This document shows, in pieces, positions 13,648 to 40,860 of a DNA stretch of 64,000 bases. This DNA is from Proteinivorax tanatarense (GTDB taxonomy: Bacteria > Bacillota > Proteinivoracia > Proteinivoracales > Proteinivoracaceae): contig NZ_CP158367.1 in NCBI RefSeq assembly GCF_040267685.1, positions 744,001-808,000 of the forward strand. The letters run 5' to 3'. The notes under the pieces are model-generated. The model ran no database searches. It was given only the letters and a program-made list of their open reading frames with translations, and was not told the origin of the DNA. Numbering within the stretch: position 1 is the first letter of the stretch; every line of letters begins with the position of its first letter. A program made the position numbers and the translations under genes.

Positions 13648-13889
13648 AAAAAAACCTTCAATCTCATTTTAAGAGACGAAGGTTACAACTCCGCGGTACC
13701 ACTCTTTTTGACCTAAATCAAAGTCCACTTACCTTATAACGGAGGAGTCCGTCTAAGCGTACTATAATTCAGCTTAGCTTATCATAAGTCCATTCAAATG
13801 GCGTTCTCTATCGGCATTCCACCAGCACCGACTCTCTTTAAGAGAAAGAACCACTCTACTAATCTTAATCTAAAATTTTTCTTGTTAAT
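13648..13889 (-). promoter_or_regulatory. T-box leader of trpS
   Basis: The minus-strand leader carries the conserved T-box sequence GTGGTACCGCGGA (antiterminator, near 13690-13702). A terminator hairpin follows (AACCTTC/GAAGGTT arms, 13652-13684, then a T run). Upstream lies a long stem I with AGAGAGTCGGTGCTGG and GAATGGAC. The likely specifier codon is TGG (13792-13790), matching tryptophan. Uncharged tRNA-Trp would stabilise the antiterminator and raise trpS expression. Confidence 0.93.
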
Positions 13890-36896: not shown

Positions 36897-36925
36897 TTGA
36901 CAAATTTTTTTAACTGCAATATAAT
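36897..36925 (+). promoter_or_regulatory. Promoter of the feo operon
   Basis: TTGACA (36897-36902), 17 bp, TATAAT (36920-36925) match the sigma-A consensus exactly. The start is expected near 36932, immediately before a Fur-like box. Confidence 0.82.
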
Positions 36926-36936
36926 TGTAAGTGAAG

Positions 36937-36951
36937 TGAAAGTCATTCTCA
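36937..36951. promoter_or_regulatory. Fur-like operator of feoA
   Basis: TGAAAGTCATTCTCA (reverse TGAGAATGACTTTCA) matches 11 of 14 positions of the 7-1-7 Fur consensus. It lies just downstream of the predicted transcription start, where a bound repressor would block initiation. Confidence 0.6.
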
Positions 36952-36983
36952 AATACATAAATTTTGAAAGGGAGTGTTTGGAT

Positions 36984-37262
36984 ATGGCTGTTGATGCTAA
37001 CAGATTGTATAAAGACAAGATGGTTGAAACCGTTTTGCAAAATAAATCTTTAGAACAATTAAATCCCGGCGAACAGGGTGTAATAGTAGATGTTCCAGCT
37101 AACTCTTTTTTAGCCTCCTTAGGGTTTAGAGCAAAAAAAACAGTTGAAGTTGTGGCTAGGGAGTTATTCAATGGACCTTTACTTTGTTCTGTTGATGGTA
37201 GGAACATAGCAATAGGCGCTGATGTTGCAGAAAAAATTATCGTAGATTCAATTGATAATTAA
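36984..37262 (+). CDS. feoA: FeoA domain protein, ferrous iron transport
   Basis: The 92-residue SH3-like protein of the FeoA family has SLEQLNPGEQGVIVDVPANS, FLASLGFRAKKTVEVVAREL, FNGPLLCSVDGRNIAIGADV, then AEKIIV. FeoA is a small cytoplasmic partner of FeoB. ATG at 36984 is chosen because AAAGGGAG is correctly spaced. The open frame continues upstream to 36816, but that part overlaps the promoter and Fur box. Confidence 0.9.
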   Translation: MAVDANRLYKDKMVETVLQNKSLEQLNPGEQGVIVDVPANSFLASLGFRAKKTVEVVARELFNGPLLCSVDGRNIAIGADVAEKIIVDSIDN

Positions 37263-37290
37263 ATGTTTGATTTTTTTATTTAGATTTAAT

Positions 37291-37305
37291 TGATAATTGT
37301 TACCA
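37291..37305. promoter_or_regulatory. Second Fur-like box in the feo operon
   Basis: TGATAATTGTTACCA matches 12 of 14 positions of the Fur 7-1-7 consensus. It lies between feoA and the methyltransferase gene. A hairpin (CAAAGCAAGCAT/ATGCTTGCTTTG, 37334-37369) without a T run follows, so a second regulated start or a partial terminator is possible. Confidence 0.45.
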
Positions 37306-37410
37306 TTTAAATGAATATGGCGTCGATTTTATTCAAAGCAAGCATAGTTTAAATTTGATGCTTGCTTTGATGTATTTATTCCTTAAAAAGCACATATCGG
37401 AGGCTAGACA

Positions 37411-37953
37411 ATGAAGAGAATTTTTACTTCAGTTGAAAAAATGTGTTGTGAATTTTATCCCGCTTTTTATTTATATCATAGTATCTATAAAAATGTTATG
37501 CGTAATGAGATTAAGTTAGCTAATATAACCTCGAATGATGTAGTGCTAAACATTGGTTGTGGGGCTATTCCGTTTACTGCATTGCATATAGTCCAAATGA
37601 CAGGTGCCAAAGTTATTGCTTTGGATAAGGACAAAGAGGCTGTTGAAAAAGCTAAAAAGTGTTTATCAAAATATAAGTTGCAAAAAAACATAGAGATAGC
37701 TTTAGGTGATGGGATTGTAGAAAATCTTCCGGATTTCACTGTAGCTATTATTGCGTTACATGTAAAAGAAAAAGCGACAATGCTGGAGAACCTTAAGTTG
37801 ACAAAAAGTCCAGGAGCAAGGGTTGTTTTCCGTCAACCTGCTGTTGGTTATGAAAATGAATACGGAAGTTTGCCTGACAAATATGTACCTGACGGTAAAA
37901 TAAGTCAAAAGATGAAGACTTTTAAGGAATCATATCTTTATCATATCAGCTAA
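37411..37953 (+). CDS. Nicotianamine-synthase-like SAM-dependent methyltransferase
   Basis: The 180-residue Rossmann-fold protein has SAM motif VLNIGCGAIPFTALHI at residues 45-60, acidic strand end VIALDKDKEAVEKAKKCL at 68-85, ALGDGI at 97-102, IIALHVKEKATMLENL at 113-128 and SPGARVVFRQPAVGYENEYG at 133-152. The GxGxxPfTA loop, the 'aLhv..Ke..L..L' helix and the 'PGa.vvfR...G' strand match nicotianamine synthase (NAS/CntL) more than generic methyltransferases. That family joins aminocarboxypropyl groups from SAM into metal chelators. The protein is shorter than known NAS/CntL (about 270-320 residues). It lies between feoA and feoB. The NAS-type function is inferred. Confidence 0.6.
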   Translation: MKRIFTSVEKMCCEFYPAFYLYHSIYKNVMRNEIKLANITSNDVVLNIGCGAIPFTALHIVQMTGAKVIALDKDKEAVEKAKKCLSKYKLQKNIEIALGDGIVENLPDFTVAIIALHVKEKATMLENLKLTKSPGARVVFRQPAVGYENEYGSLPDKYVPDGKISQKMKTFKESYLYHIS

Positions 37954-37987
37954 TCGCTTGCTTTTAAAAGTGTGGAGGTAAAAGAGT

Positions 37988-38980
37988 TTGAAAAAATCAT
38001 TTCTATTATTAGTGGCGATACTTTTTTTTCTTGTGTTAACTGTAGTCTTAGGTTACGATGAGGTTTTAGATGTAATTGGCAGAATGAGTTTTAATCAACT
38101 TCTTCTAATGACAGCGTTACAGTTATGTACTTTGTTTTTAACAAGTTTTATTTGGTATTATCTGTTACGACAGAAATCTAGTAAGGTTTCCTTAAGTAAT
38201 GTTTTTGGAATAAATTTAGCAGGCTCTTTTGTGGAAAGTGTTACTCCGTCAGTAAAAGTTGGTGGAGAGGCTTTGAAAGTATATCTAATGCAAAAAGAAA
38301 CAGCTCTTAAATATACAGAAATTACTGCAATAACATTGGTAAGTAAATTTATTTCTCTGTTTCCTTTTTTAATTATTAGCTTTTTAACACTTTTTATTGC
38401 ATTTTTAAGTTTTGATCTACCATTGTTTATATTATTAGCTTTTTTGGGTTTGGTATTATTTTTTTGTTTGTTTTTTGTTATTTTTAATTTTAAAGGTTCA
38501 TTTTTAGAGCGGCTTTTTTACAAATTTGAGCAAAATAAAAGCCCTGTTTTTAAAAAGATTAAAAATAAAGTTATAAAAGTGCAATTTTTTTTAGAGGAAA
38601 CTTCGTTAAAATCAAAAACAGTTGTTACTGACTTCCGAAAACGGGTTTTATTGTTTGCAATCGCGTTTGTGGTCTGGAGTTTTTATCCGGTTAAGGTTTA
38701 TTTAGTAGCTAGGATACTAGGTTTTCAACTTAATCCTGTTATTGTTATAATAGCTACCTTTAGTGCATACTTAGTTAGCATGATTCCACTGCTACCAGGA
38801 GGATTAGCTACTTTTGAAGGAACCTTAGCTCTAGTTTTGGCGTATGAGGGTTTAGCTCCCCATGAAGCATTTTCTATAGCTATAATGACTCGTGTAATTA
38901 CTTTTTGGATTCCTTTATTGATATCTGCAATTCCAGCTATTTACTATATAAATAAAACGAAAGATAAAAACGGAAAGTGA
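37988..38980 (+). CDS. Flippase-like membrane protein (lysylphosphatidylglycerol synthase TM / UPF0104 family)
   Basis: The 330-residue protein has about eight helices and the family marks FGINLAGSFVESVTPSVKVG, then GEALKVYLM, and SMIPLLPGGLATFEGTLALV. The family includes the membrane part of MprF (a lipid flippase) and glycolipid-related proteins. No catalytic domain is attached here. TTG start behind GTGGAGGT. It sits between the NAS-like gene and feoB, 15 bases before the feoB start. Confidence 0.82.
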   Translation: MKKSFLLLVAILFFLVLTVVLGYDEVLDVIGRMSFNQLLLMTALQLCTLFLTSFIWYYLLRQKSSKVSLSNVFGINLAGSFVESVTPSVKVGGEALKVYLMQKETALKYTEITAITLVSKFISLFPFLIISFLTLFIAFLSFDLPLFILLAFLGLVLFFCLFFVIFNFKGSFLERLFYKFEQNKSPVFKKIKNKVIKVQFFLEETSLKSKTVVTDFRKRVLLFAIAFVVWSFYPVKVYLVARILGFQLNPVIVIIATFSAYLVSMIPLLPGGLATFEGTLALVLAYEGLAPHEAFSIAIMTRVITFWIPLLISAIPAIYYINKTKDKNGK

Positions 38981-38995
38981 GAGAAGGTGGTTGAA

Positions 38996-40810
38996 ATGGT
39001 GAAAAATCAAGAAAAACCAAATATTCTTATGATAGGGCAGCCTAACATAGGAAAAAGTGTAATGTTTAACAATCTTACGGGATTAAACATAAGTGCTGCA
39101 AACTATGTTGGGACTACTGTTGAGTTTACTGCTGGAGAAGTTACCCTAGGTGATTTGAAAGCAAATTTGATTGATGTTCCAGGCACATATACACTGGAAG
39201 CGACAAATGAAGCTGAACAGGTGGCAGTAGAAATGTTGCAAGGTAGAACAAATCGTTCCAAAACAAAAAACTGCCATGAAGATGGCGGCCTTCAATCTGT
39301 AAATTTGGCTAAAAGCCCTGATGCCGTTATTTGTGTACTAGATGCCCATAACCTTGAAAGCAGTCTATATCTTTTATTTCAAGTAATGGAGTATAACATA
39401 CCTACCATTGCTGTCCTTAACAGGATGGATATTATTGAGGAACGTGGGGAAAAGATTGATGTCCAGTATCTTTCTAAACTTTTAGGAGTTTCTGTGATTC
39501 CAACAGTCGCTGTTGAGAAAAAAGGTGTAGATGTATTAAAAGAGTTGTTAAAAGGTGTTTTATCAACCGGGGCTACAAGAGAGAATGAAACAGCTAAAAA
39601 ACTTGATGACGGTAAGGTCAAAAATGAATTGTGGGAAAAGGCTGAAAAAATTACTAAACAAGTTAAAACTAAGCCTGAAGTTATAAAAAAGACAAGAAGT
39701 CAAATATGGGGTGCAGCTTTGGTAAAACCATGGCCAGGAATTCCCCTTGCTATATTAATTTTGGCGGCGGTCTTTGGTGTTGTTGTTGGAGTTGGTATGG
39801 GTCTTCGAAAATACTTATTGTTACCTCTTTTTAGAGGATATATAATCCCTGCGATATCATCGGTGGTGGAGCTAATAGTTCCTGAAGGACTTATTCTTAA
39901 CGTTTTAATAGGAGAATATGGAGTTCTGGTAAAGGGCCTGGAGTGGCCTCTTACTCTTGTGTTGCCTTATGTTCTTTCTTTTTATTTTGCTTTAAGTATA
40001 ATGGAGGACAGCGGATATCTTCCTAGGTTAGGTGTGCTGTTAGATGGTCTATTAAGTAAGCTAGGTTTACCTGGTTCTAGTATTGTTCCATTGCTTTTAG
40101 GATATGGATGTGGAATACCAGCAATTATGGCAACTAGATCTTTGAACTCTAGAAAAGAAAGAATTACAGTTTCTACAATGGTTGCTTTAGGAATACCTTG
40201 CGTAGCTCAATCGGGAGCTTTTATAGCGCTTATGGCGGAAAGATCTATTTTAGCATTGCTATTAGTATTTTTATTCTCTTTTGCAGTGGTTTTTTTAGCT
40301 GGGTTTACTATAGATAAGATATTACCAGGAAGCCGACCCTACACTATAATGGAAGTACCAGAGTTGCTTTTTCCAAAGGGAGAAGTTATATTAAAAAAGG
40401 TTTGGTCGAAGGTTAAGAATTATTTAAAAGAAGGCGTTCTTCCTATGATGGCTATCATAGGCGTTGCAGCTTTTTTATATGAAAGTGGAATAATGGAATG
40501 GATTGGTGAAGCTTTAAGTCCTTTAGTGGTAAGCTGGTTAAGATTGCCTGCTGAAGCTTCTGTTCCTTTGATTTTAGGAATATTTAGGCGTGAACTTACC
40601 GTTATTCCTCTTATTGAGATGGACTTAACTACCTTGCAGCTTTTTACTGGTGCTATTGTTGGGTTGCTTTATGTTCCTTGTGTAGCAATACTTGCTACTT
40701 TGGCTAGAGAGTTTAACATTAAAATGGCATTATTTATTTTAGTACTAACTAGTTCCTTAGCCTTTTTAGTAGGAGGGATTGTAGCTAGAGTTGGTGGTTT
40801 GCTATTTTAA
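38996..40810 (+). CDS. feoB: Ferrous iron transport protein B
   Basis: The 604-residue protein has an N-terminal G domain: G1 GQPNIGKS, G2 in NYVGTTVE, G3 DVPGTY and G4 NRMD. About eight membrane helices follow with the paired gate motifs LLGYGCGIPAIMATRSLNSR and GIFRRELTVIPLIEMDLTTL. It is shorter than E. coli FeoB, mainly by a compact linker. It imports Fe2+ in anaerobes. The ATG at 38996 is preferred over GTG at 38987 because AGAAGGTGG precedes it. Confidence 0.93.
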   Translation: MVKNQEKPNILMIGQPNIGKSVMFNNLTGLNISAANYVGTTVEFTAGEVTLGDLKANLIDVPGTYTLEATNEAEQVAVEMLQGRTNRSKTKNCHEDGGLQSVNLAKSPDAVICVLDAHNLESSLYLLFQVMEYNIPTIAVLNRMDIIEERGEKIDVQYLSKLLGVSVIPTVAVEKKGVDVLKELLKGVLSTGATRENETAKKLDDGKVKNELWEKAEKITKQVKTKPEVIKKTRSQIWGAALVKPWPGIPLAILILAAVFGVVVGVGMGLRKYLLLPLFRGYIIPAISSVVELIVPEGLILNVLIGEYGVLVKGLEWPLTLVLPYVLSFYFALSIMEDSGYLPRLGVLLDGLLSKLGLPGSSIVPLLLGYGCGIPAIMATRSLNSRKERITVSTMVALGIPCVAQSGAFIALMAERSILALLLVFLFSFAVVFLAGFTIDKILPGSRPYTIMEVPELLFPKGEVILKKVWSKVKNYLKEGVLPMMAIIGVAAFLYESGIMEWIGEALSPLVVSWLRLPAEASVPLILGIFRRELTVIPLIEMDLTTLQLFTGAIVGLLYVPCVAILATLAREFNIKMALFILVLTSSLAFLVGGIVARVGGLLF

Positions 40811-40818
40811 TTACAACT

Positions 40819-40860
40819 AAAACTGGCAGGTAATCATTAGATTGCCTGCCAGTTTTGTTT
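40819..40860 (+). terminator. Terminator of the feo operon
   Basis: AAAACTGGCAGG pairs with CCTGCCAGTTTT around a 14-base loop and is followed by GTTTTG. Confidence 0.88.

Follow-up and report, generated by a model that had tools for sequence, protein, structure and literature searches.

A ferrous iron transport operon with a shortened nicotianamine synthase-like enzyme and a flippase-like protein: candidate genes for a lipid-anchored iron ligand

Organization and regulation of the operon

In the window analyzed here, a stretch of 64,000 nucleotides from the complete 3.09 Mb genome of Proteinivorax tanatarense, four open reading frames on the + strand form one operon: feoA and feoB are its outer genes, and between them lie the genes for a SAM enzyme of 180 aa and for a flippase-like protein of the UPF0104 type. 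Its features are as follows:

36897..36925, + strand: sigma-70-type promoter, TTGACA-17-TATAAT (12/12 consensus positions)
36937..36951, no strand assigned: Fur-type box TGAAAGTCATTCTCA (12/14 to TGAGAATNATTCTCA, shuffle p 0.013)
36984..37262, + strand: feoA (PF04023, 55.4 bits against a cut-off of 23)
37411..37953, + strand: short NAS-core enzyme (MT-alpha), putative 3-amino-3-carboxypropyl transferase (profile and model match to MtNAS/CntL)
37988..38980, + strand: stand-alone UPF0104/LPG_synthase_TM flippase-like protein (PF03706, 151.8 bits against 33.4; TIGR00374, 129.7 bits)
38987..40810, + strand: feoB, variant subfamily (GQPNIGKSV...NYVGTTV; FeoB_N, two Gate stretches, FeoB_C)
40818..40857, + strand: intrinsic terminator hairpin (18-pair stem, then a T-rich tail)

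The consensus promoter, the Fur-like box, the four same-strand genes and the terminator had all been pointed out in an earlier note on this DNA, and each was found where that note placed it; its description of the third gene as a stand-alone UPF0104-type protein is borne out by the two profile matches listed above. The intergenic gaps, which it called short, are mostly so, but feoA is separated from the enzyme gene by 148 bp. The Fur-type box lies directly downstream of the -10 element, and we regard ATG 36984 as the best start of feoA because it lies downstream of both the promoter and the box. A relative from the same genus (L037) has a box with 13/14 matches, and boxes with a shuffle p<0.05 occur upstream of 50 of the 79 modules (a set that includes a few duplicate loci), where about 4 would be expected. 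In the same relative an extra UPF0104 gene (L037:6551-7594) is located directly 5' of feoA in the same operon. A DtxR-type iron-dependent repressor adjoins the operon in several Clostridia (L102:11543-11920, L106:7114-7515, L097, L108 and L109), and some of these operons (L106 and L097) have no clear Fur box. With respect to riboswitch control, an Rfam scan of the window returned only a T-box and a tRNA, both away from the operon; the T-box leader is at 13669-13881 on the - strand (135 bits).

The 180-aa protein is related to nicotianamine synthase and CntL

The motifs GCGAIPFTA, ALHVKEKATML and PGARVVFR, from which the second gene product had been likened to nicotianamine synthase (NAS) and CntL, are all present in the protein. 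In a single-sequence scan it matched Methyltransf_31 with 30.4 bits, above the cut-off of that family, and Pfam NAS (PF03059) with 25.7 bits, just under the curated cut-off of 27.1; its best NCBIfam model was CntL, with 47.5 bits, far under the cut-off of 350. A profile built from 55 homologues and run against all solved structures gave the archaeal MtNAS (4.5e-21) and CntL (1.4e-19) as top matches, with the next protein at 2.4e-6. The AlphaFold2 model (pLDDT 92.7) likewise has its best fold match in MtNAS (Z 19.9, 178/180 residues, model residues 1-180 on MtNAS 73-264), followed by CntL (Z 18.8, CntL residues 76-263, model residue 1 on residue 76), while the best fold outside NAS/CntL reaches Z 17.7 over 141 residues.

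The resemblance extends to the catalytic residues. Glu81 and Tyr107 of MtNAS deprotonate the acceptor amine (PMC10491745), and the matching residues E77 and Y106 of AtNAS1 are essential (PMC10248798). E9 of the 180-aa protein falls on MtNAS E81 and CntL E84 according to the aligned ranges, in agreement with the profile alignment to CntL, and Y26 falls on MtNAS Y107 in the profile alignment. Among 129 non-redundant homologues, no alpha or beta sequence that covers the position departs from either residue, or from E33, G49, G51, P54 or R141; G49, G51 and P54 belong to the G-x-G-x-x-P-T/S loop of a Rossmann SAM domain. Thus, the best profile and structural match is NAS rather than an ordinary methyltransferase family, with the Glu/Tyr pair retained, and the likeness proposed in the earlier note stands.

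Archaeal MtNAS (PDB 3FPE-3FPJ, 3O31) and plant NAS (PF03059) therefore share with the window enzyme the SAM domain, the loop, the Glu81/Tyr107 pair and the Glu that follows it. They differ in length, the window enzyme having 180 aa instead of about 270; model residue 1 corresponds to MtNAS residue 73, and the N-terminal helical domain (MtNAS residues 1-72) is missing. They also differ in context: the window-type enzyme is associated with feoAB and a flippase, and frequently with a phosphatidylserine (PS) synthase as well. CntL, the D-histidine 2-aminobutanoyltransferase of staphylopine synthesis (PDB 7C7M, 7C9K, 7C9M), has the same core fold with Glu84 on Glu9. Judged by sequence and model, the 180-aa protein is a predicted catalytic NAS core minus the N-terminal 72 residues; as it has no N-terminal domain and scores under the curated cut-offs of both families, we have assigned it to neither NAS nor CntL. 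The loss of MtNAS residues 1-72 fits an acceptor larger than a free amino acid. An amphipathic N-terminal helix, computed as a sign of membrane binding, gave a weak signal (median p 0.11 to 0.38) and is therefore not used as evidence. Longer NAS/CntL-like homologues (264-316 aa) are encoded in other genomes of the phylum (L196, L197, L198 and L199), with no feo or flippase matches in the same stretch.

An ordinary lipid methyltransferase that N-methylates PS or phosphatidylethanolamine (PE), with the flippase spreading the lipid, would make the operon an iron-linked membrane adjustment without a chelator. The Methyltransf_31 match above cut-off and the many class I methyltransferases that match the model at Z 15-17.7 agree with such a role. 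By sequence profile and by fold, however, the protein is closer to NAS and CntL by a clear margin, and the Glu/Tyr pair of ACP (3-amino-3-carboxypropyl) transfer is invariant; we consider methyl transfer rather improbable and have not adopted it as the main reading.

Conservation of the module

Homologous loci were gathered by the enzyme sequence alone, so the gene neighborhood is not built into the counts that follow. Among 102 non-redundant loci, the same-strand cluster with the enzyme holds feoB in 85 and the flippase in 86, and both the flippase and Feo genes lie beside the enzyme in 76. The gene set is thus conserved across many families and several phyla, as a survey suggested in the earlier note revealed, but the order feoA-enzyme-flippase-feoB of the window is a minority form; most often the order is feoA-feoB-enzyme-flippase-PssA (26 loci) or feoA-feoB-enzyme-flippase (20 loci). 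Exceptions include the enzyme alone (6/102) and the enzyme with the flippase but without feo (8/102). Carriers include Alkaliphilus, Evansella, Heliorestis, Tepidanaerobacter, Halonatronum, Fuchsiella and Clostridium mobile. Methanosalsum natronophilum, an archaeon, also has the enzyme, as do MAGs from soda lakes that bear the labels Spirochaetaceae, Actinomycetota, Cloacimonadota and Thermoflexales. Many carriers (L051-L111) are alkaliphilic or come from soda lakes, which may be explained in part by the sampling of soda-lake MAGs.

The host genome encodes a second enzyme-flippase pair away from feo (L036:8459-9933, G000:C1 about 1284458-1285932), with overlapping genes and adjoined by a DUF2085 membrane protein and a prismane-type hybrid cluster protein. 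Desulfonatronospira MAGs (L054, L062, L064 and L088) also have the pair, with no adjoining feo in the flanking DNA examined.

No racemase, opine dehydrogenase, Cnt importer or other metallophore ABC importer is found among the recurring neighbors listed, which sets the window-type enzyme apart from CntL. Our searches of open-access papers found no description of the module, although earlier notice is possible.

A FeoB variant accompanies the enzyme

The FeoA and FeoB domains of ferrous iron transport are complete in the window operon, and FeoB_N, Gate and FeoB_C of its FeoB all score over the Pfam cut-offs; compared with canonical FeoAB, however, this FeoB belongs to a distinct subfamily. It scores 304.9 bits against NCBIfam TIGR00437, under the equivalog cut-off of 315.65, a shortfall consistent with a variant subfamily on sequence grounds. 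The subfamily was set apart by score, its members having at least 627 bits and the next FeoBs at most 569. A survey of 398 genomes of the phylum located the enzyme in 42 and the FeoB variant likewise in 42, and 39 genomes have both (Fisher 7e-47). The host genome additionally encodes a canonical FeoB at 2012662. Three genomes (G378, G109 and G250; loci L201, L202 and L203) have the variant without the enzyme and with no enzyme or flippase gene nearby, which may reflect secondary loss; in two of them a DtxR-type regulator is located downstream.

The enzyme also has a paralogue, MTbeta, a well-supported second NAS-core clade (23 sequences, SH-aLRT 100) with the catalytic residues retained, whose members match PF03059 with 29.6-51.6 bits and adjoin the first enzyme in Halanaerobiales-type operons; Halonatronum is one of the carriers. 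Gene fusions couple the parts of the module physically: MTbeta~FeoA in 4 loci, flippase~MTbeta in 1 locus and flippase~PS synthase in L102, with both domains over the Pfam cut-offs in the scanned fusions.

The MTbeta~FeoA fusions and the near one-to-one pairing of the enzyme with one FeoB variant could also mean that the enzyme serves the regulation or assembly of FeoB, by modifying FeoA, FeoB or a lipid required by the variant, in which case no ligand would capture iron. Modification of a protein, however, needs neither a flippase nor a PS synthase, and enzyme-flippase pairs exist away from feo in the host genome and in Desulfonatronospira, so we regard this role as very unlikely.

The lipid context of the module

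The most frequent extra neighbor of the module is a CDP-alcohol phosphatidyltransferase, a PS synthase whose gene comes after that of the flippase, mostly with an overlap of the two, and that is adjoining or fused in 32/102 loci. All seven operon PS synthases scanned match PF01066 (CDP-OH_P_transf) over cut-off, and the best model of the separate genes is always TIGR00473 (pssA) or TIGR04217 (archaetidylserine synthase), with the TIGR00473 cut-off passed by 2/7. Tepidanaerobacter is a carrier that has the PS synthase in its operon, and Alkaliphilus peptidifermentans is one that does not. The PS decarboxylase gene psd is found in none of the 18 sampled genomes with an operon PS synthase, versus 128/132 of the other genomes with pssA. 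Both this pattern and that of MTbeta and pssA comprise no more than 1 to 3 evolutionary contrasts that are independent of one another, and the large p-values therefore overstate them. The enzyme is present in 19/21 genomes that have pssA and lack psd. The absence of psd where the PS synthase is in the operon indicates that the PS there is a product of the iron operon rather than an intermediate on the way to PE. On the MT tree the independent contrasts were too few for a significant test result, although nearly all of those with support agree with the prediction. The window operon has no PS synthase; the host encodes pssA and psd elsewhere in its genome and makes PS and PE, so PE is also a possible acceptor in the host.

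Among the 42 genomes with the enzyme, pssA is present in 34/34 without MTbeta and missing in 7/8 with MTbeta. This suggests, as a lead rather than a proof given its two or three contrasts, that MTbeta supplies an amino-acid head group where PS is absent.

In MprF and in the GlcN-PG operon gpgSDF, a UPF0104 protein forms the flippase domain (PMC5898192, PMC12713373). These systems combine a cytoplasmic head-group enzyme with a PF03706 flippase, by which the modified lipid is brought to the outside, and the gene content of the window operon corresponds to this layout; its putative head-group enzyme, in contrast, is NAS-type and the operon is part of ferrous iron uptake. Transfer of the ACP group of SAM onto a lipid, which we propose for the window enzyme, has a counterpart in the betaine-lipid ACP transferase BtaA, reported to be non-homologous to NAS or CntL (PMC10491745).

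The earlier note had envisaged a small soluble NAS-type ligand, naming a lipid as an alternative, and our results favor the latter. In the soluble version ACP is added to a free amino acid, UPF0104 exports the product and FeoB imports its iron. The use of free glutamate or D-histidine by MtNAS and CntL, the closest known enzymes, the retained Glu/Tyr pair and the Fur control all accord with this scheme. It requires, however, that the enzyme works without the N-terminal part of the substrate chamber and with no opine dehydrogenase or metallophore ABC importer among the recurring neighbors listed, and that UPF0104 proteins, lipid flippases where studied, act on something else, and it leaves the operon PS synthase and the missing psd unexplained. 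We consider a soluble metallophore unlikely. A modified membrane lipid is the likelier product because of the flippase family, the PS synthase in about one third of the operons and the co-distribution of the module with pssA and psd.

Proposed function

That the operon makes a lipid-anchored nicotianamine-like iron ligand and displays it beside a dedicated FeoB is, on the sequence evidence, a proposition that we hold to be evenly balanced. Its fuller form we advance tentatively, as somewhat short of an even chance: a NAS-family enzyme, shortened for work at the membrane, would turn PS, or a head group made by the paralogue, into a membrane-anchored nicotianamine-like chelator that the UPF0104 flippase displays outside for the FeoB variant; iron acquisition of this kind would be new. 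The comparisons given above support the class to which the enzyme belongs, the co-regulation of the genes, the physical coupling between the parts and the lipid context.

In the course of events that we infer, iron scarcity would cause Fur to release the operon, and the enzyme would transfer the ACP group of SAM, rather than a methyl group, onto the amine of a lipid whose head group is an amino acid. The acceptor would most likely be PS from PssA, which is encoded in the operon in many relatives and elsewhere in the host genome; in lineages without pssA, MTbeta may build the head group. The flippase would then place the modified lipid in the outer leaflet, where the phosphate, amine and carboxylate of its head group could act as ligands and collect Fe(II), and the collected Fe(II) would be handed over to the FeoB variant and imported by it together with FeoA.

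Conclusions

The module, which spans a wide range of anaerobes and alkaliphiles, bears on the way in which extracellular Fe(II) reaches FeoB and on possible partners of FeoB beyond FeoA and FeoC, for which it names concrete candidates. The predicted lipid, PS + 101.05 Da per transfer, is a defined target for mass spectrometry. If the proposal is true, nicotianamine chemistry would reach from free amino acids to lipids, and many UPF0104 proteins would gain a substrate. It would also account for bacteria that make phosphatidylserine without phosphatidylethanolamine: about 5% of the sampled genomes of the phylum would make PS only for an iron ligand.
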